A stretch of 64,000 bases of DNA from contig RGCL01000002.1 of assembly GCA_009919175.1 (NCBI GenBank), positions 1 to 64,000 on the forward strand, in the 5' to 3' direction. This document shows positions 1 to 56,730 of this stretch, one piece after another; position 1 is the first letter of the stretch; each line of letters opens with the position of its first letter. The translations under genes were made by a program, and so were the position numbers. This stretch comes from Betaproteobacteria bacterium (GTDB lineage: Bacteria; Pseudomonadota; Gammaproteobacteria; Burkholderiales; Burkholderiaceae_C). Under the pieces are notes generated by a model. The model saw only the letters and a program-made list of their open reading frames with translations, ran no database searches and had not been told where the DNA came from.

Positions 1-838
1 ATTGTTCTCGCCCTTTTGAAACATCAACCCCGCTCAAGGACACCTCATCGCCATGCACGCTCACCACGCCTTGCGGCGTGGCCAGGCGAAAAGCGCCTTG
101 CTCGTCCACCTCCAGAGCCTGGCCTTCGCGCCCATCGCTGAGGCGAACCGCCCGTCCCCGGAGCACATCGCGCGCATGGTAGCGCGTTCGCCAGGGCTCC
201 CACCCGGTTTGCTCGAATTGCCGCAGCGCCTGCATCAGCACGGGCACGATGGCGGCCAGGCACTCGGGGGCGCTGCGCGCGTCGCCCAGGTCGGCCAGGC
301 CCACAGGTGGGGTGCGAAAGCCCGCGTGGCCCGCTGCCAAGGGGTCCGGGGTGCGCACGTTCAGACCAATGCCAATCACCACCCGCCCCGGTTCGCGACC
401 CTGGAGCACCGTCTCGATGAGGATGCCCGCCAGCTTTCTAGGCCCGGCCTGGCCTTGGCGGGGCTTCGCCCATACGTCGTTAGGCCACTTGAGGCCAATG
501 CCCAATTGATGATCGGGGTCCAGCACCTCGGCCAGCACCACGCCCACCACCAGCGACAAGCCCGTCCAGGCGGCGGGCTGCAGGGTCAAACCCAGCGACA
601 TCATGAGGCTCTCGCCCGGCGCACTGTGCCAGGTGCGGCCTAGACGGCCGCGACCGGCCTGCTGGTGTTCGGCCACCAGGAGCGTGGGGGGCAGATCGGG
701 CGCGCGCGCCCTGCGCATGAGCTCGGCGTTGGTGGAGTCGATGTCGGCCACCACCTCCACCGAAAAACCGGGCCACTGGGGGCTGAGGGCTTGCCAGAGG
801 TCTTCGGCAGGCCAGCGCAAGGACACACCCGCCGCCAT
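1..838 (-). CDS. birA: Biotin--[acetyl-CoA-carboxylase] ligase, C-terminus cut by window edge
   Basis: Biotin protein ligase: it makes biotinyl-AMP from biotin and ATP and loads it onto the carrier lysine of acetyl-CoA carboxylase and other carboxylases in the cytoplasm. Seen: DSTN at residues 34-37, the biotin-binding loop HQQAGRGRLGR at 58-68 and KWPND at 117-121, then a C-terminal region matching the small SH3-like domain. There is no N-terminal helix-turn-helix, so it is the non-regulatory, single-function type. The frame is still open at base 1 after about 279 codons, so only a few C-terminal residues are missing. The ATG at 838 follows the stop of the SET gene by 4 bp, so the two are probably cotranscribed. 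Confidence 0.93.
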   Translation of the reverse strand, partial: MAAGVSLRWPAEDLWQALSPQWPGFSVEVVADIDSTNAELMRRARAPDLPPTLLVAEHQQAGRGRLGRTWHSAPGESLMMSLGLTLQPAAWTGLSLVVGVVLAEVLDPDHQLGIGLKWPNDVWAKPRQGQAGPRKLAGILIETVLQGREPGRVVIGIGLNVRTPDPLAAGHAGFRTPPVGLADLGDARSAPECLAAIVPVLMQALRQFEQTGWEPWRTRYHARDVLRGRAVRLSDGREGQALEVDEQGAFRLATPQGVVSVHGDEVSLSGVDVSKGREQ

Positions 839-842
839 GGGC

Positions 843-1400
843 TCACGCCTTCTTGGTGCGTTTGCGCGACGGGGCTTTGACGCTGGCGCTGAGCATGGTG
901 CCCCGGCATTGAGCGGCGCCACACCAGCAGGGGTATTCGGCGCGCTCCTTGGCGGTGATGGGGCCGTCGAGCACCAGGCCATAGTTGTAGTTGAGCTCTT
1001 CGCCCGCACGGATGCGGCGCAAGGCCTTGATGAACACGCGACCCTCGACCTCGTCGGCCTCGCAATTGGGGTCACAGGAATGGTTGATCCAGCGCGAGGC
1101 GTTGCCGCCATACAAGGCGTCGATGACATGGCCATCGTCGATGTGGAAGTAGAAGGTGTGGTTGGGGTCGCTCGGGTCATGCGGATGGCGGCGCAAGGCC
1201 TCCTTCCAGGTGATGAGCTCCCCCACGTACTCGATGAGGGTCTCGCCCGCTGCAATGGGTTTGAGGGCAAAGACGCCCTTGCCATGCACGCCGGAGCGGC
1301 GCACCTGAATGCGGCGCGTATCAGCGCCAGCCGCGGTGCGCTTGGCAGAGGAAGTGGATCGGGTGCGGCGGGGGGTAGGGGGGGCAGTTTGCGGCTTCAC
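843..1400 (-). CDS. SET-domain protein-lysine methyltransferase
   Basis: Predicted S-adenosylmethionine-dependent protein-lysine methyltransferase. With the GTG at 1400 as start the protein has 185 residues: a basic, Pro/Arg/Ser-rich leader (1-30), the SET core with YVGE near 58-61, the SAM-binding and catalytic NHSCDPNC at 106-113, ELNYNYG at 135-141, a post-SET zinc-cysteine cluster CWCGAAQC at 158-165, and a Lys/Arg-rich tail. TTG at 1403 is an equally possible start; a CAGG lies just upstream of both. The frame stays open to 1517, but that stretch translates the GC-alternating tract and looks non-coding. It is divergent from topB and upstream of birA. The substrate is unknown; bacterial SET proteins are known mainly from chlamydiae and a few environmental lineages. 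Confidence 0.85.
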   Translation of the reverse strand: MKPQTAPPTPRRTRSTSSAKRTAAGADTRRIQVRRSGVHGKGVFALKPIAAGETLIEYVGELITWKEALRRHPHDPSDPNHTFYFHIDDGHVIDALYGGNASRWINHSCDPNCEADEVEGRVFIKALRRIRAGEELNYNYGLVLDGPITAKERAEYPCWCGAAQCRGTMLSASVKAPSRKRTKKA

Positions 1401-1423
1401 CAAAAAACCTGATAAGTTGAATT

Positions 1424-1473
1424 CATGTGCACGCGTGCGTGCGTGTGCGCGTGGGCGCGCGCGCCTGCGCGCG
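1424..1473. other. Alternating purine-pyrimidine tract (Z-DNA-prone)
   Basis: Bases 1424-1453 alternate pyrimidine and purine without a break (CA/TG/CG steps), followed by further (GC)n runs at 1455-1464 and 1467-1473. This is the sequence type that flips to Z-DNA under negative supercoiling. It fills the divergent promoter region between the SET gene and the topoisomerase III gene. Confidence 0.8.
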
Positions 1474-1531
1474 AGGCCGCATTGTAGGCACAGCCCGACT
1501 GTGTGTGGATTGAACAACTGGAAACCAGCTC

Positions 1532-4465
1532 ATGAGCAAAACCTTGGTGATCGCCGAAAAGCCGTCTGTGGCCCAGGATTTGGTGCGTGCCCTCACGCCC
1601 ACCAGCGGCAAATTTGAAAAGCATGACGACCATTTTGAAAACGACGCCTACGTGATCACCAGCGCGGTGGGTCACCTGGTGGAGATCCAGGCCCCCGAGG
1701 CCTATGACGTCAAGCGCGGCAAGTGGAGCTTTGCCCATTTGCCCGTGCTGCCGCCTCACTTTGACTTGAAGCCCGTGGAGAAAACCAAGTCGCGCCTCAA
1801 TGCGGTGGTCAAACAAGCCAAACGCAAGGATGTGGCCAAGCTCATCAATGCCTGTGACGCGGGGCGCGAGGGCGAGTTGATCTTCAACCTCATCGCCCAG
1901 TACGCAGGCGGCGCCAAAGGCCTGGGCAAGCCCGTGCAGCGCCTGTGGCTGCAGTCGATGACGCCTCAGGCCATCCGCGACGGCTTTGAGCAACTTCGCT
2001 CCGAGAAAGACATGGCGGGTCTTGCCGACGCCGCGCGCAGCCGCTCCGAGGCCGATTGGCTGGTGGGCATCAACGGCACGCGCGCCTTCACCGCCTTCAA
2101 TTCGCGCGATGGGGGCTTTTTCCTCACCACCGTGGGGCGGGTGCAAACGCCCACGCTGAGCCTGGTGGTGGACCGCGAGCAACTCATCCGCCAGTTTGTG
2201 AGCCGCCCCTATTGGGAAATCCATGCCCAGTTTGCGCTGCCCCATGGCGAATACGCCGGGCGCTGGTTCAACCCTGAGCACCGCAAGTCCGCCGATGACC
2301 CCGAGTTGAAGGAAGAGCGCCTGTGGACGCTGGAGCAGGCGCAAGCCTTGGCACAGGCCGTGGCAGGGCAACGTGCCGAGGTGAGCGAAGAGAGCAAGCC
2401 CAGCAGCAAGGGCTCGCCCGGCCTCTTTGACCTCACCACCTTGCAGCGCGAGGCCAACAACCGGTTTGGTTTCTCGGCCAAGACCACCTTGGCGCTGGCG
2501 CAAAGCCTCTATGAACGGCACAAGGCGCTGACCTACCCCCGAACCGACTCCAAGCACTTGCCCGAGGACTACCTGGCCACCGTGCAGCAAACCGTCTCGG
2601 CGCTGGCCAAGTCAGGCTACGCCACAGTGATGCCCCATGCCAAGGAAGCCCTGGCACAGGGCTACATCAAGCCCAGCAAGAAAATCTTTGACAACAGCAA
2701 GGTCAGCGACCACTTTGCCATCATCCCCACGGGCGAAGTGCCCAGCGGCCTGAGCGAGGCCGAGTTCAAGCTCTACGACTTCGTGGTCAAGCGCTTCATC
2801 GCGGCGTTTTTCCCCCCCGCGCAATTCCTCGACACCACGCGCATCAGCAAGGTGCAGGCCTTGGGCAAAGCCCAGCACTTCAAGACCACCGGCCGCGTGC
2901 TCAAGGAGCCGGGCTGGATGCGCGTCTATGGCAAGAGCGCCGAGGCCGACAGCGAAGAGGACCAGGACAAGGTGCTCACCCCGCTCAATGGCGCCACCAG
3001 CGCACAGCTGAGCCAGGCTGAACTCAAGGCCTTGCACACCCGCCCACCGGCGCGCTATTCGGAGGCCACGCTGCTGGGCGCGATGGAGGGCGCGGGCAAG
3101 CAAGTCGAAGACGAGGAACTGCGCGAGGCCATGTCCGACAAAGGCCTGGGCACACCCGCCACGCGCGCGGCCATCATCGAGGGCCTGCTCACCGAAAAAT
3201 ACATGCTGCGCGAAGGCAAGGAACTCATTCCCACCGCCAAGGCCTTCCAGCTCATGACCCTGTTGCGGGGGCTGGAGGTGGAAGAACTCACCCGCGCTGA
3301 CCTCACCGGCGAGTGGGAACACAAGCTGTCGATGATGGAAAAAGGCCAGCTCTCGCGCGAGGCCTTCATGCGCGAGATCCAGGCCATGACCGAGCACATC
3401 GTCAAAAAGGCCAAGGAATACGACCGCGACACCGTGCCCGGCGATTACGCCACCCTGAGCGTGCCCTGCCCCAACTGCGGCGGCGTGGTCAAGGAAAACT
3501 ACCGCCGCTACGGCTGCACCGGTGCCCAGGGTGAGGGCGAAGGCTGCGGCTTCTCGTTTGGCAAGACCCCCGGCGGGCGCACCTTCGAGCTGGCCGAGGT
3601 GGAACAGTTCCTGCGCGACAAGCGCGTCGGGCCGCTCGAAGGCTTTCGCTCCAAGGCCGGCTGGCCGTTCACCGCCGAGCTCGCGCTCAAGTTCGACGAG
3701 GAGCTCAAGAACTGGAAGCTGGAGTTTGACTTTGGCGACAACGGCCAGGACGGGGACACCGGCGAGCTGGTGGACCTGAGCACATCGCCCGCACTAGGCA
3801 CTTGCCCACGCTGCGGCGGCGGGGTGCATGCCCATGGCAGCAACTATGTGTGCGAGCGCAGCGTACCCACGCATGCGCAGGCCACGCCCAGCTGCACCTT
3901 CAAGAGCGGGCGCATCATCCTGCAGCAGCCCATCGAGCCCGAGCAAATGACCAAGCTGCTCACGCAAGGCCAGACCGACTTGCTGGAGAAGTTCATCTCC
4001 ATGCGCACGCGACGCGCCTTCAAAGCCCGCCTCAAGTGGGATGCCGAGGCTGACAAGGTGGCATTTGAATTCGAGCCCAGCAAGTACCCACGCAAAACCC
4101 CGGCGGGCAAAGCGGCCGTGCCCGCCAAGGCAGCGGGCAAAACCGCCGCCAAGGCCGCAGGCAAGACCCCCAAGGCCGCCACCAAAACAGCGGCCAAGAA
4201 AGCCCCCGCCAAACGCGCAGCCAAAGCCCAAAGCGCCAACAAGCGCCCCAGCGCAGCCCTGGCTGCGGTGATTGGCGACGCGCCAACAAGCCGCACCGAG
4301 GTCATGAAACAGCTGTGGGACTACATCAAAGCCCAGGGCTTGCAAGACCCCAAGGACAAGCGACAAATCCTCGCTGACGCCAAGCTCAAGGCCGTGCTGG
4401 GCAAAGACAAGGTGGGCATGTTCGAACTCGCGGGCCTCATTGGTCCGCACCTGAACGACGCGTGA
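1532..4465 (+). CDS. topB: DNA topoisomerase III with Lys/Ala tail and C-terminal SWIB domain
   Basis: Type IA topoisomerase that relaxes or decatenates DNA by single-strand passage. The 977-residue protein has an N-terminal Toprim domain (VIAEKPSVA at 6-14, acidic DAGREGE near 111), the catalytic tyrosine in TYPRTDS (Tyr335, codon at 2534), and two cysteine-rich C-terminal zinc modules (CPNCGG and CPRCGG). Residues ~857-903 are almost entirely Lys/Ala/Pro, like bacterial histone H1-like proteins, and residues ~904-977 form a SWIB/MDM2-type domain. Ordinary TopB proteins are about 650-870 residues, so the tail is an extension; comparable SWIB fusions are known in chlamydiae and some Burkholderiales. 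The ATG at 1532 gives the canonical MSKTLVIAEKPS start. Confidence 0.96.
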   Translation: MSKTLVIAEKPSVAQDLVRALTPTSGKFEKHDDHFENDAYVITSAVGHLVEIQAPEAYDVKRGKWSFAHLPVLPPHFDLKPVEKTKSRLNAVVKQAKRKDVAKLINACDAGREGELIFNLIAQYAGGAKGLGKPVQRLWLQSMTPQAIRDGFEQLRSEKDMAGLADAARSRSEADWLVGINGTRAFTAFNSRDGGFFLTTVGRVQTPTLSLVVDREQLIRQFVSRPYWEIHAQFALPHGEYAGRWFNPEHRKSADDPELKEERLWTLEQAQALAQAVAGQRAEVSEESKPSSKGSPGLFDLTTLQREANNRFGFSAKTTLALAQSLYERHKALTYPRTDSKHLPEDYLATVQQTVSALAKSGYATVMPHAKEALAQGYIKPSKKIFDNSKVSDHFAIIPTGEVPSGLSEAEFKLYDFVVKRFIAAFFPPAQFLDTTRISKVQALGKAQHFKTTGRVLKEPGWMRVYGKSAEADSEEDQDKVLTPLNGATSAQLSQAELKALHTRPPARYSEATLLGAMEGAGKQVEDEELREAMSDKGLGTPATRAAIIEGLLTEKYMLREGKELIPTAKAFQLMTLLRGLEVEELTRADLTGEWEHKLSMMEKGQLSREAFMREIQAMTEHIVKKAKEYDRDTVPGDYATLSVPCPNCGGVVKENYRRYGCTGAQGEGEGCGFSFGKTPGGRTFELAEVEQFLRDKRVGPLEGFRSKAGWPFTAELALKFDEELKNWKLEFDFGDNGQDGDTGELVDLSTSPALGTCPRCGGGVHAHGSNYVCERSVPTHAQATPSCTFKSGRIILQQPIEPEQMTKLLTQGQTDLLEKFISMRTRRAFKARLKWDAEADKVAFEFEPSKYPRKTPAGKAAVPAKAAGKTAAKAAGKTPKAATKTAAKKAPAKRAAKAQSANKRPSAALAAVIGDAPTSRTEVMKQLWDYIKAQGLQDPKDKRQILADAKLKAVLGKDKVGMFELAGLIGPHLNDA

Positions 4466-4468
4466 ACC

Positions 4469-4891
4469 TCAGCGCGAGGGCTTGATCGCCTCGCCCACCC
4501 GCTCTGCCGACAACTCAATGGGTTGTCCGTGGGGCGTAGCCTCTGCCGCGTCGGACCAGGCCTGCGCCAAGGCTGCAAGTTGCTGGCCTTGCGCCAGGCC
4601 TTTGGCCTGGACCAGTTGCTCGAGCGCATCGAGCCAGTGCAGGTAGTAGTCGCGCCCGTCGTCGTGCCCGCCTTGGGCTTGGGCGCGGGCGATGGCGGCC
4701 GACAAAGCCTCTGCCCATTCGCCCCAGCTGAAGCAACCCTGCTGATGCAAGGCCACGGTGGTGGCAAAAGCCTGGGCTTGCCAGGGCTCAGCAAACACCT
4801 GTTCGTCGTCGGCGCTAGGGGGCAAGGCAAAGCCCTGTGCGCAGTGCGCGGCGATCTCGGCCAGGGTGGCCTTGGCGTTGCTTGGCGTCAT
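4469..4891 (-). CDS. Nitrile hydratase accessory (activator) protein
   Basis: Small protein (140 residues) of the nitrile hydratase activator family, which helps load the active-site metal into the alpha subunit. The features PWQAQAFA and GxFSWGEWAEAL near residues 36-62, and YYLHWLDALE near 86-95, match the family fold, which resembles a beta-subunit N-terminus. The ATG at 4891 overlaps the TGA of the beta-subunit gene as ATGA, showing translational coupling and confirming the start; the frame extends further upstream but within the beta gene. It is the last gene of the three-gene operon and converges on topB, whose stop is 3 bp away. Confidence 0.88.
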   Translation of the reverse strand: MTPSNAKATLAEIAAHCAQGFALPPSADDEQVFAEPWQAQAFATTVALHQQGCFSWGEWAEALSAAIARAQAQGGHDDGRDYYLHWLDALEQLVQAKGLAQGQQLAALAQAWSDAAEATPHGQPIELSAERVGEAIKPSR

Positions 4892-5559
4892 GGCGCGGCC
4901 ACCAGCATGGGTTCCCACACGTCCAGGTGCATCACGTCGCGTGGGTGAGCCGATTCGCCCCACAGCTCGCTGGCCTCAAAGCGCACGGCATACAACCAGG
5001 CTGCGGCCTCGGGCTCGCCGGGTGCTTGCTGGGCATGGGCGTCGGCAAACAGGTGGTGGCCTTGCACACGCACCACCACGCCAGTGCGCCCGCGTGCGTA
5101 GCGCGGCAAGCGGGTGTGGCCGCTGGGGTGCAGGTGGCGCGTGCGCACCCGCTCGCCCACGGCAAAGCGGGGGTCTTGAGGGGCGGGGCGGTCCACAGGT
5201 GAACCTTTGGCCAGCGCGGCATCGACCTGGCTGGCCATCAAGCGACGCGGCAAGGCAACCCCGGGGGTTTGGCTCACGCCGCTGTCCCATTCGGCGGGGC
5301 TCACCAGGCCACGGGCAATGAGCATGCGGCGCAAGCCCGCCAGCCAGATCTCGTAATACGAGGCGCTCAGGTAAAAGGCCGGGGGCAAGGACTCGCGGGC
5401 ATGGCGCATGGCGTCGAGGTTCCAAGCGCCCGTCGCGCCCATGGCCAGGGTCAAGCCCAAGGCCTGTCGTTCCCATTCGGCATGGAAGAGGGGCTCGTGG
5501 GCTTCGGGCTGAACCGGCCCAAAGCCTTGCATGCCGCCAAGGTCGTGGGCGCTGTTCAT
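4888..5559 (-). CDS. nthB: Nitrile hydratase subunit beta
   Basis: Beta subunit (223 residues) of nitrile hydratase, which hydrates nitriles to amides in the cytoplasm. Seen: the N-terminal [16 protein letters not shown] signature, the helical region with YYEIWLAGL, and the C-terminal SH3-like barrel with [10 protein letters not shown] and [11 protein letters not shown], typical of beta subunits. The ATG at 5559 overlaps the alpha stop (ATGA) and the stop overlaps the accessory gene start, so the three genes form one tightly coupled unit in the order alpha-beta-accessory. Confidence 0.94.
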
Positions 5560-6266
5560 GCGCGTGCTCCTGATGGCTTGGCCATGGTGTGCGCTGGCCG
5601 GGCCAGGCCCGTGCCAATCATGCTGTCGCGGGTGACCAGGCTCGCAAGCGCCGCCTGGTCCCAAGCCTGGGTGCCAGCAGGCCGCTCGGGGATCACCAAA
5701 TAACGCACCTCGGCGGTGGAATCCCACACCCGCACCTCGGTGGTGTCGGGCAGCACCAGCCCAAAGTCGGCCAGCACGCTGCGCGGATCCATCACCACCC
5801 GGCTGCGATAAGGCGCGCTCTTGTACCAAACCGGCGGCAAACCCAGCACTGGCCACGGGTAGCAACTGCACAGGGTGCAAACCACCACATTGTGTTGGCC
5901 GGGCTGGTTGAACAAGGCCACCATGTGCTCGCCCTGGCGCCCGTGATAGCCCAGCGAGGCGATGGCTGCCGTCGCGTCCCGTGCCAGCCAATCGGCAAAC
6001 GCCGGCTCGCTCCAGGCCTTGGCCACCACCCTGGCCCCATTGCGCGGCCCCACGTCGGTTTCGTAGGTCTGCACGATGCGGTCGATGGCCTCGGGGTCGA
6101 TGTAGCCCTTGGCTGTAAGCAGGCTTTGCAGGGCGCGCACGCGCACCTCTTGCTCGCTCAGGTGGCTGTGGTCATGCGGGTGGTCATGCGAGTGGCCATG
6201 GGCATGGGCATGCGTGTGATGGGGGTGGTGGTCATGCGAATGACCATGCGGTTCGTCGGGCTTCAT
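5556..6266 (-). CDS. nthA: Nitrile hydratase subunit alpha, cobalt-type, His-rich N-terminus
   Basis: Catalytic alpha subunit (236 residues). The metal claw VCTLCSC places cysteines at 130, 133 and 135; the Thr after the first Cys is the marker of non-corrin cobalt enzymes (iron enzymes have Ser). It is followed by [10 protein letters not shown], also conserved. Unusual: residues 7-35 contain 16 histidines alternating with Ser, Asp, Ala and Gly, a metal-binding stretch absent from well-studied bacterial alpha subunits. ATG at 6266 is taken as start; an in-frame GTG lies one codon upstream. Neither an amidase nor a cobalt transporter gene is in the window, so amide use and cobalt import must be encoded elsewhere. 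Confidence 0.94.
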
Positions 6267-6290
6267 CACCCCATCTTACGAAGACAAGCG

Positions 6291-11283: not shown

Positions 11284-11805
11284 ATGGCCTTGCTCAGCAT
11301 CCTCTGTTATCCCGACGAACGCCTGCACACCGTGGCCAAGCCCGTGGCAGTGGTGGACGACCGCATCCGTCGCCAGATCGACGACATGTTTGAAACCATG
11401 TACGAAGCCAAGGGCGTTGGCCTGGCCGCGACGCAAGTGGATTTCCACGAGCGGCTCATCGTGATGGACGTCTCCGAAGAACGCAATGAGCCCATCGTGC
11501 TCATCAACCCCGAAATCGAATGGGCAAGCACCGAGCCTTTTGAATGGGAAGAAGGCTGCCTGTCCGTGCCTGGCGTGTACGACCGCGTCCAACGTGCCGA
11601 GCGCGTGCGCGTGCGCGCACTCGACCGCGACGGTCAGCCCTTCACACTCGAGGCCGAAGGCCTCATGGCCGTGTGCATCCAGCACGAAATGGATCACCTC
11701 ATGGGCAAGGTCTTTGTGGAATACCTCTCCTTGCTCAAGCGCACCCGCATCAGAGCCAAGATGGTCAAGGCGCGCCGCGAGCGCGAGCGCGACGGCGAAC
11801 ACTGA
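11284..11805 (+). CDS. def: Peptide deformylase
   Basis: Removes the formyl group from N-terminal formylmethionine of new proteins. The 173-residue protein has the three deformylase motifs: [17 protein letters not shown] (metal-binding Cys) and HEMDH (two metal-binding His and catalytic Glu). The start [21 protein letters not shown] matches the family. It is divergent from dprA and 2 bp upstream of fmt, the usual def-fmt pair that removes and adds the formyl group. Confidence 0.97.
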
Positions 11806-55509: not shown

Positions 55510-56730
55510 TCACGCCCTTTGATTCACCTCACCCCAGCTTAGGCTGGGGTTTTTTTTGCGCGATGCGCGCTTGGGGTTGAGCTGGGGTTGCGGCAAATCG
55601 GTGAGTCGCTCCAAGGCCTGGGCCTGATCGATCACACCACCACCCAGGCAGACCTCGCCGTCATACACCACGATGGACTGCCCCGGAGTCACCGCCCATT
55701 GGGATTGATCGAACACCGCCTGCAAGCGCGCGCCCTGTGGGCTGTCACCCACAGCGAGGCGACACGCCGCATCGGCCTGGCGATAACGCGTCTTGGCGGC
55801 AAGCGCCAGCCCCGGCTCGGGTGCATGGCCACTCACCCAGCTGAGGTCTTGGGCCTGCAAGGTGGAGGACAAAAGCCACGGGTGGTCATGCCCTTGCACC
55901 ACCCACAAGGTGTTGGTGGCCACGTCCTTGTGCGCGACAAACCAGGGCTGGTGATCGCTGCTGCCGCGTTGCGCGCCTTTGGCCTTGACCCCACCAATGC
56001 CCAGACCCTGGCGCTGCCCCAGGGTGTAAAAACTCAAACCCATGTGCTGGCCGATGACTTGGCCTTGGTCGTTGCAGATGGGACCGGGTGCGCTGGCAAT
56101 GTAGCGGTTGAGGAATTCGCGAAAGGGGCGCTCGCCAATGAAGCAAATGCCCGTGGAGTCTTTCTTTTTGGCATTGGGCAACTGCATTTGCTCGGCGATC
56201 TCGCGCACGCGGGTTTTTTCCAGCTCACCCACAGGAAACCAGGTCTTGGCCAACTGCGCCTGGTTGAGGCGGTGCAGGAAATAGCTCTGGTCCTTGGTCG
56301 CATCCAGCCCCTTGAGCAATTGCACGCCCTGAGCCGTCTCGCGCACACGCGCATAGTGGCCGGTGGCGATGCGCTCGGCACCCAGCGCCATGGCGTGGTC
56401 GAGGAAGGCCTTGAACTTGATCTCGGCGTTGCACAAGACATCGGGGTTGGGGGTGCGGCCGTTTTGGTATTCGTGCAGGAACGCGGCAAACACGCGGTCT
56501 TTGTAGTCGGCGGCAAAGTTCACATGCACCAGCTCGATGCCGATCACATCGGCCACGGCCGCGGCATCCACAAAGTCGACGTTGGAGGAACAGTATTCAC
56601 TGTCGTCATCGTCTTCCCAGTTTTTCATGAAGACGCCCACCACCTCGTGGCCTTGCTGCTTGAGCAGCCAGGCACTCACAGCGGAATCGACTCCGCCGCT
56701 CAGGCCAACGACGACGCGTGAGGGTTTCAT
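55510..56730 (-). CDS. mnmA: tRNA-specific 2-thiouridylase MnmA
   Basis: Thiolates U34 of Lys, Glu and Gln tRNAs (406 residues). PP-loop [25 protein letters not shown] at 6-30, catalytic [36 protein letters not shown]; a second cysteine in the MnmA pair is present in DSTGICF. The C-terminal region after QLNPKR is unusual: its codons are the stem and T-run of the desaturase terminator on the other strand. A GATAAT box ends 7 nt before the ATG. Confidence 0.95.
55532..55557 (+). terminator. Intrinsic terminator of the desaturase, inside mnmA
   Basis: CCCCAGC-TTAG-GCTGGGG followed by eight T on the plus strand, 28 bp after the desaturase stop. The sequence also codes for the C-terminal residues (KNPSLSW region) of mnmA on the minus strand. 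Confidence 0.88.

Follow-up and report, generated by a model that had tools for sequence, protein, structure and literature searches.

Bacterial topoisomerase genes may themselves respond to the topology of DNA, as described for topA and gyrAB, which participate in supercoiling homeostasis in most bacteria (PMC7398561). A similar response to torsion may apply to the promoter of topB, the gene encoding DNA topoisomerase III, at a locus in a 64,000-nucleotide stretch of betaproteobacterial DNA (assembly GCA_009919175.1, contig RGCL01000002.1, positions 1 to 64,000; referred to below as the window). This topB differs from topA and gyrAB in possessing a natural tract of alternating purines and pyrimidines, a sequence of the Z-DNA type, in its predicted start region, which it would have in common with a divergent gene encoding a SET-domain methyltransferase (the SET gene). 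The predicted promoter arrangement resembles that of scbA–scbR in Streptomyces coelicolor, whose promoters face each other and whose leaders are antisense, with transcripts that overlap by 53 bp and a collision that has been modelled (PMC3134472). However, scbA and scbR are genes of a signalling system, and no Z-DNA-type tract is mentioned in the sections of that report drawn on here (PMC3134472).

The proteins encoded by the two genes also have described counterparts. Actinobacterial TopA resembles the TopB of the window in being a type IA topoisomerase with H1-like lysine repeats in its C-terminal part; these repeats confer processivity and have also been noted in Bordetella TopA, although they are found on TopA rather than TopB, and the SWIB domain is unmentioned in the parts of that source considered here (PMC7398561). 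In chlamydiae, SET and SWIB proteins and a fusion of a type IA topoisomerase with SWIB are present in one organism, and a chromatin-modifying complex has been proposed, but the fusion involves TopA, not TopB, and the portion of that account used here describes neither gene adjacency nor a tract (PMC6426960). BtSET, RomA and LegAS4 are, like the predicted product of the SET gene, bacterial SET-domain lysine methyltransferases and are described as host-directed (PMC3980110), whereas the SET gene of the window's family is present in 112 of 120 sampled genomes (119 genera) and is tied to topB.

The intergenic tract, which the earlier note on this DNA did not mention, is the most unusual part of the locus. 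It was first recognized when intergenic regions of many loci, read in the frame of the SET gene, yielded runs such as RTRAHARTRAH. In the window, it comprises a perfect alternating run of 30 bp, extending to 50 bp with breaks, and thus has the sequence expected of a Z-DNA-forming element, a long alternating run rich in CG and CA/TG. The 22-mer (RY)11 occurs at a single site in the 2.93-Mb assembly, namely in this tract. Shorter alternating runs are located in the window at 11601–11620 (20 bp) and 56340–56355 (16 bp).

The two genes flanking the tract form a conserved pair. A scan of genome contigs confirmed at least 567 relatives of the SET gene, and among the best 80 loci, which were analysed in detail (L001 and L002 being excluded from locus counts), the start of topB was found divergently beside SET in 74. 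In five of the remaining six, the SET match was near the end of the contig on the side at which topB is expected; the sixth, L033, carries SET but no topB. The named near relatives among these loci are mostly Comamonadaceae (Limnohabitans, Ramlibacter, Polaromonas and Rhodoferax), and judging by its relatives the window organism would fall within Burkholderiales. In the family sample, topB was found in 115 genomes and both genes in 109, and in 107 of the latter the two lie divergently with under 1.5 kb between them, the exceptions being G363, with the genes on different contigs, and G376, in which they are approximately 8 kb apart. Whole-genome counts and core tests below retain G376 (108 genomes), while locus counts omit it (107). 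The divergent SET–topB pair is therefore a fixed trait of the family, beyond what chance would give, and no description of it was found among the listed literature matches (open-licence PMC papers).

Beyond the family, the association is looser. In an order-wide sample of 300 genomes, nine of them from the window's family, a SET match (E 1e-10) was detected in 71, SWIB in 112 and topB of the PRK08173 type in 153; outside the family, SET matches below 140 bits were counted as absent, which left 52 genomes with a strong SET match, 48 of them with a listed topB. The two genes lie tail to tail in all four f6 genomes (L267, L268, L270 and L271), with 6–260 bp between the matches. SET is located 1.6 kb from topB in one of two f20 genomes, 4–10 kb away in five of seven f4 genomes, 8 kb away in one of four f8 genomes and 17 kb away in the single f10 genome. 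In f32, the distance is 12 kb in one of seven genomes and approximately 12.4 kb in two more if their contigs are circular, while it is at least 32 kb in the other four. In f3, f11, f13, f39 and f47, the genes are on different contigs of mostly fragmented assemblies, and no topB was listed in the SET genomes of f19 and f40. The genome survey of adjacency that the earlier note had proposed thus confirms divergent neighbours throughout the window's family, with looser or tail-to-tail arrangements in some others; SET genes lying apart from topB with no correlation, which the note regarded as fatal to its proposal, are clearly not the rule in the family, while such separation is found, or cannot be judged, in some of the other families. 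Second SET copies away from topB were also noted (G377:C1:300505-300933 and G234:C1:721295-721723), one with an in-frame TGA.

Within the family, the tract accompanies the pair. The intergenic tract ranks first within its locus in 72 of the 74 divergent loci and in 93 of the 107 adjacent loci of the family sample, and, on a scoring scheme of our own, values of at least 20 were reached by 75 of 107 intergenic regions but by none of the 107 locus remainders (22 kb versus 1.16 Mb in total). Alternating 24-mers are present in 69 of 108 genomes, all of them within the SET–topB intergenic region in 38 genomes and some of them in 16; this region accounts for 452 of the 779 such 24-mers (G376 contributing 0 of 11). 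Outside the family, a tract of at least 16 was found upstream of topB in only one of 75 loci and directly upstream of SET in none of 21, where the best runs scored 7–18 (1.5 kb on each side where available). The sole outsider, L304 in G132 (f49), has no listed SET and carries a 24-bp alternating tract 149 bp upstream of topB. Between relatives, the tract changes in its letters while the alternation persists; over 68 non-overlapping pairs, differences of the transition and transversion types, of which transitions keep the alternation, numbered 209:85 in the tract and 376:743 in the flanks, although this excess is partly built in, as aligning two alternating tracts favours transitions. Alternating stretches of at least 10 bp have been described as under-represented in all groups except beta-proteobacteria, with no locus singled out in the sections of that study considered here (PMC2728739). 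The listed literature matches (open-licence PMC papers) did not describe a Z-DNA tract at topB in these bacteria.

The tract is bordered by two putative promoter elements. In most of the loci printed in tract-aligned form, a motif TGn(n)TAnnnT lies on the SET side, followed by the tract and then by ATTGTA, which reads TACAAT on the other strand. Among the 93 loci whose tract reached 16, TGn(n)TAnnnT was found to the left of the tract in 78 and ATTGTA to its right in 85, compared with 6.8 and 1.1 expected from dinucleotide shuffles. In the window, a consensus promoter scan recovered the SET site as TCCACA-17-TACAAT and did not list the extended -10 box predicted for topB at 1410–1418. Transcription begins approximately 7 nt from a -10 box, and by this spacing the predicted starts would be located at about 1425 and 1474, that is, at the two ends of the tract. 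The locus thus has two predicted -10 boxes, one on each strand, on either side of a common start region, as expected of facing promoters. With one predicted start at either end of the tract, the topB and SET promoters would face each other, and both messages would begin within it.

The rearranged loci of the family indicate what the tract belongs to. In G301, G345, G353 and G393, a gene of 176–179 aa that overlaps the start of topB lies between the tract and topB (redoxin/thioredoxin-like in G301, the one of the four that was tested, with a Pfam Redoxin match), and in all four loci the tract accompanies the promoter motifs rather than the topB start codon. This gene, which has the motif WWASWCPFC (loci L120, L163, L171 and L208), would share the promoter of topB. 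Eight family genomes lack SET, and the region upstream of topB was read in four (G322, G324, G336 and G370). There, the divergent gene appears birA-like by eye (BPL_LplA_LipB in Pfam for G324), -10-like motifs are likewise discernible by eye in all four loci, and the tract scores 20.5 in G322, 14.5 in G370 and 12.5 in G336, whereas it is gone in G324. The notion that the tract is a property of SET was dropped, given its retention in G322 without SET and the lack of any run of at least 16 directly upstream of SET in the 21 loci outside the family. As the tract stays with the motifs and can persist without SET, the element seems to belong with the topB promoter region in this family rather than with SET.

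Whether the tract is maintained as a Z-DNA-type structure was addressed in the cores between the -10 boxes, in the 91 of 108 loci where both boxes were matched by the search expression (17 were left out). Alternation exceeded that of dinucleotide shuffles with a median z of 3.7 and was above 1.64 in 78 of the 91 cores. The superhelical density at which the tract would undergo the B–Z transition was estimated for 93 loci at a median of about -0.039, a crude two-state value for a 5-kb domain. Divergent transcription is described as raising negative torsion between polymerases, the B–Z transition as occurring at attainable torsion, and Z-DNA as detectable in vivo at sites inserted into bacterial DNA (PMC3024258). 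Selection for a Z-DNA-type structure at the tract is, on balance, the explanation that the pattern favours; Z-DNA formation itself, the flip in vivo, and the sign and effect on transcription are all inferred.

An element answering to negative supercoiling, shared by topB and SET and coupling the two genes, may underlie this arrangement, and for the model as set out here we regard the chances as evenly balanced. With the -10 box of topB on the SET side and that of SET on the topB side, and predicted starts at the ends of a tract of mostly 20–55 bp, both messages would cross the tract first and their leaders would be antisense to each other. Polymerases departing in opposite directions would cause negative torsion to gather at the tract, which, above a threshold (crudely, sigma -0.035 to -0.045), would flip to Z-DNA and absorb several negative turns. 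RNA polymerase is blocked by Z-form (CG)n. At both promoters, the flipped tract would hinder the initiation of transcription or its early elongation; topB and SET, together with birA, would thereby be throttled jointly and reset once torsion falls. The larger proposal, a natural Z-DNA switch kept throughout the family, in which torsion flips the tract where the transcripts of a topoisomerase gene and of a gene resembling those of histone methylases both start, and so closes a feedback loop between supercoiling and the enzymes that manage it, is offered more tentatively.

Several points weigh against this interpretation. The tract score is a home-made measure, the transition excess has its built-in component, the intergenic tract fails to rank first in its locus in 14 of 107 cases, a run of at least 16 occurs elsewhere in 11 of 107 loci, and all alternating 24-mers lie elsewhere in 15 of the 69 genomes that contain them. 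In the SET-less genome G324, -10-like motifs are retained but the tract is missing. The direction of the effect is conjectural, and a product that removes negative supercoils might instead predict induction of topB. An AlphaFold model of the SET protein, built from 22 sequences, reached a pLDDT of 45 and was set aside as unusable. Moreover, the core also surpasses dinucleotide shuffles in hairpin energy, with a median z of -1.4 and 38 of 91 cores below -1.64, the hairpin z of the tract alone is below -1.5 in 25 % of cases on the topB strand, and loci with weak alternation can have strong dyads (z -4.3 in G323 and -2.5 in G333). A cruciform, a leader hairpin or a protein-binding dyad may be the selected feature. 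According to this main alternative, the tract was selected as an inverted repeat, namely a leader-RNA hairpin, a DNA cruciform or the site of a dimeric regulator, and alternation is a by-product of GC-rich repeats that pair with themselves, such as GCGCGC. A reading based on hairpins only was tested against the shuffles and was kept as a rival; it is an unlikely explanation, though one to be taken seriously, given that alternation is the stronger signal, that hairpins need no strict purine–pyrimidine alternation and that the hairpin z-values of the tract alone are weaker (medians -0.61 and -0.84). The other possibility is that the element has no function, the gene order being inherited from one ancestor and the tract being a drifting simple repeat. 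The divergent pair was encountered in a single family, dinucleotide repeats can expand, and beta-proteobacteria are unusual in having more alternating stretches than expected (PMC2728739), but the confinement of every alternating 24-mer of a genome to this one site in 38 of 69 genomes and the persistence of alternation while the letters change make such drift highly improbable.

A separate question is what the SET protein modifies. Its closest solved relatives are histone-lysine enzymes, human KMT2A (MLL1) being first (E 8.1e-28), followed by its kin. Among 22 sequences, N106, H107, C109, P111 and C113, the tyrosines Y138 and Y140 of the catalytic region and the post-SET cysteines C158, C160 and C165, which align with the KMT2A post-SET region, are invariant, and GEELNYNYG is present, so that the window protein has the NHxC motif, catalytic Tyr region and zinc-binding CxC...C cysteines of the SET-domain family. 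Most probably, the protein is an MLL/SET1-like enzyme that methylates protein lysines and serves the same topology or nucleoid programme. The earlier note had described a SET protein with NHSCDPNC and a post-SET cysteine cluster divergent from topB, and a TopB ending in a Lys/Ala tail followed by SWIB; both descriptions hold, with the positions and motifs of the former confirmed and the latter borne out by translation and the Pfam match (SWIB at residues 905–974, E 1.2e-25). The co-occurrence of SET and SWIB, which the note had pointed out for chlamydiae, is seen here too: outside the family, SWIB is present in 42 of 52 SET-positive genomes and in 61 of 239 others, a comparison uncorrected for kinship. 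At the family level, 13 families with SET, 12 of them also with SWIB, were counted by hand against an assumed total of 48, and the genome counts are preferred. In the chlamydial precedent to which the note appealed, the co-occurrence of SET and SWIB stands, while results on methylation of the H1-like Hc1 have been called discordant and are contested (PMC6426960).

The fusion of TopB with SWIB is itself already known, because the NCBIfam model PRK14724 ‘DNA topoisomerase III’ (NF011313) spans TopB with SWIB, matching residues 1–974 of the window protein end to end with 1730 bits (cut-off 1088) and placing it in the PRK14724 type of topoisomerase III. In the 300-genome order sample, fused SWIB (open frame of about 1000 aa) was found only in the window's family, in eight of its nine genomes. 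In the adjacent family genomes, a TopB match extends as far as SWIB at the end of the model in 52 of 107 and stops short of it in 55, a few of the latter being cut by contig ends (in G353, SWIB is carried by a second piece, located on another contig). Adjacency of SET and topB is therefore independent of SWIB, and SWIB as the tie between the two genes was dropped as an explanation.

The earlier note had proposed that the SET enzyme methylates the Lys/Ala tail of TopB; such methylation of its lysines would tune the grip of TopB on DNA. The conserved adjacency and the Lys-rich tail of the window protein (13 Lys in 58 residues before SWIB, cut slightly differently from the linker of Table 1) are in keeping with it, as is the speculation that lysine repeats are acetylated in Streptomyces TopA (PMC7398561). 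Tails could be cut out in 67 of 110 complete family TopBs; in the other 43, which mostly lack SWIB and include G387 with its early-broken frame, the last 120 residues contain Lys/Ala-rich tails, mostly short and in a few cases long. Among family TopBs with SET but no SWIB, tails are mostly short, of the type PAKKAAAKKA (medians of 24 residues and 6 Lys over the 15 tails that could be delimited), with longer examples of 58 residues in G327 and 48 in G385. Outside the family, tails were read in 40 of the 48 SET-positive genomes with a listed topB and in 40 SET-negative genomes, one incomplete TopB being dropped. At least five lysines were found in 36 of 40 SET-positive and 35 of 39 SET-negative tails, while the median number was higher with SET (11.5 versus 7; p 0.02, uncorrected, also for kinship). 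Long tails with about 20 Lys occur in the SET-less G179 and G240. In the four f6 genomes, where the two genes touch, the tail has 0–1 Lys. TopB was read to its end in four family genomes that lack SET: lysines persist in the tails of G324, G336 and G370, whereas the tail of G322 is Arg-rich with no lysine, which speaks for tail methylation. The proposal is thus unsupported: Lys tails occur with and without SET, abutting f6 pairs nearly lack tail lysines, and SWIB-less pairs are mostly short-tailed. The co-variation test likewise gave no support to tail methylation as the reason for the pairing, and we consider this substrate improbable. The tail data do not fit a tail that exists for SET methylation, while methylation of the tail may occur in the window's clade.

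Alternatively, the SET enzyme may have another substrate: a SWIB or H1-like protein that stands alone, a protein of the ribosome or a small molecule, the adjacency to topB being only regulatory or inherited. This account concerns the substrate and is compatible with the shared promoter element. It is consistent with the co-occurrence of SET and SWIB outside the family, with a standalone SWIB gene in the window's genome (G000:C205:62898-63116, 96 bits) as a possible alternative substrate, and with a Burkholderia SET protein, BurB, that is described as methylating methionine (PMC12542666). On the other hand, SET touches or lies near topB in differing positions in several families (f1, f6, f20 and f4), and its kinship to KMT2A points to histone-lysine enzymes; such a target is plausible, though we hold it somewhat short of an even chance. 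Several SET proteins, for example those of L003, L016 and L019, have Lys-rich C-termini, for which self-methylation or DNA contact is conceivable.

The features of the locus are collected in Table 1. The SET gene is probably shorter than its mechanical open reading frame (843–1517), because homology ends near a TTG–GTG pair at 1403–1398. The Pfam matches in TopB comprise the topoisomerase core, Toprim, Toprim_Crpt (in two stretches) and SWIB. The birA-like gene directly downstream of SET is probably in the SET operon.

Table 1. Positions of genes, domains and predicted elements at the SET–topB locus of the window
Feature	Position	Strand	Basis or remark
birA-like biotin-protein ligase	2–838	-	Open frame, recognized by eye; extends past contig start
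SET-domain methyltransferase gene	843–1400	-	PF00856, E 5.9e-25; probable GTG start at 1400, 185 aa
Alternative SET gene start	TTG at 1403 (possible)	-	Start judged from end of homology
Post-SET cysteine cluster CWCGAAQC	906–929	-	Translation
NHSCDPNC motif of SET core	1062–1085	-	Translation
Predicted extended -10 of topB (TGATAAGTT)	1410–1418	+	TGn(n)TAnnnT left of tract
Alternating purine–pyrimidine tract (Z-DNA type)	1424–1473		Top score in the 64-kb window
Predicted -10 of SET (TACAAT), facing that of topB	1481–1486	-	ATTGTA right of tract
topB, DNA topoisomerase III with C-terminal SWIB	1532–4465	+	NF011313, E 0; Pfam Topoisom_bac, Toprim, Toprim_Crpt, SWIB
Lys/Ala-rich linker (H1-like tail) of TopB	4097–4237 (about residues 856–902)	+	Translation, composition
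SWIB domain of TopB	4244–4453	+	PF02201, 94.6 bits

Directly downstream of topB, on the opposite strand, lies a nitrile hydratase cluster (4469–6269) comprising an accessory/beta-like protein and an alpha chain (PF02979, E 4.3e-85). The window's genome also contains a second, quite different SET-domain gene (L002:1465-1887; 140 aa, PF00856, E 6.3e-9), which adjoins an open reading frame that by eye resembles a secretion/pilus ATPase.

For the question of whether Z-DNA has a native role in bacteria, a tract kept at a topoisomerase promoter throughout a family, and in many genomes without a second one of such length, would offer one defined site for Z-DNA formation and its effect on transcription, and the conserved SET–topB pair provides a genetic handle on the part that eukaryote-like SET and SWIB proteins play in bacteria other than in the infection of hosts.

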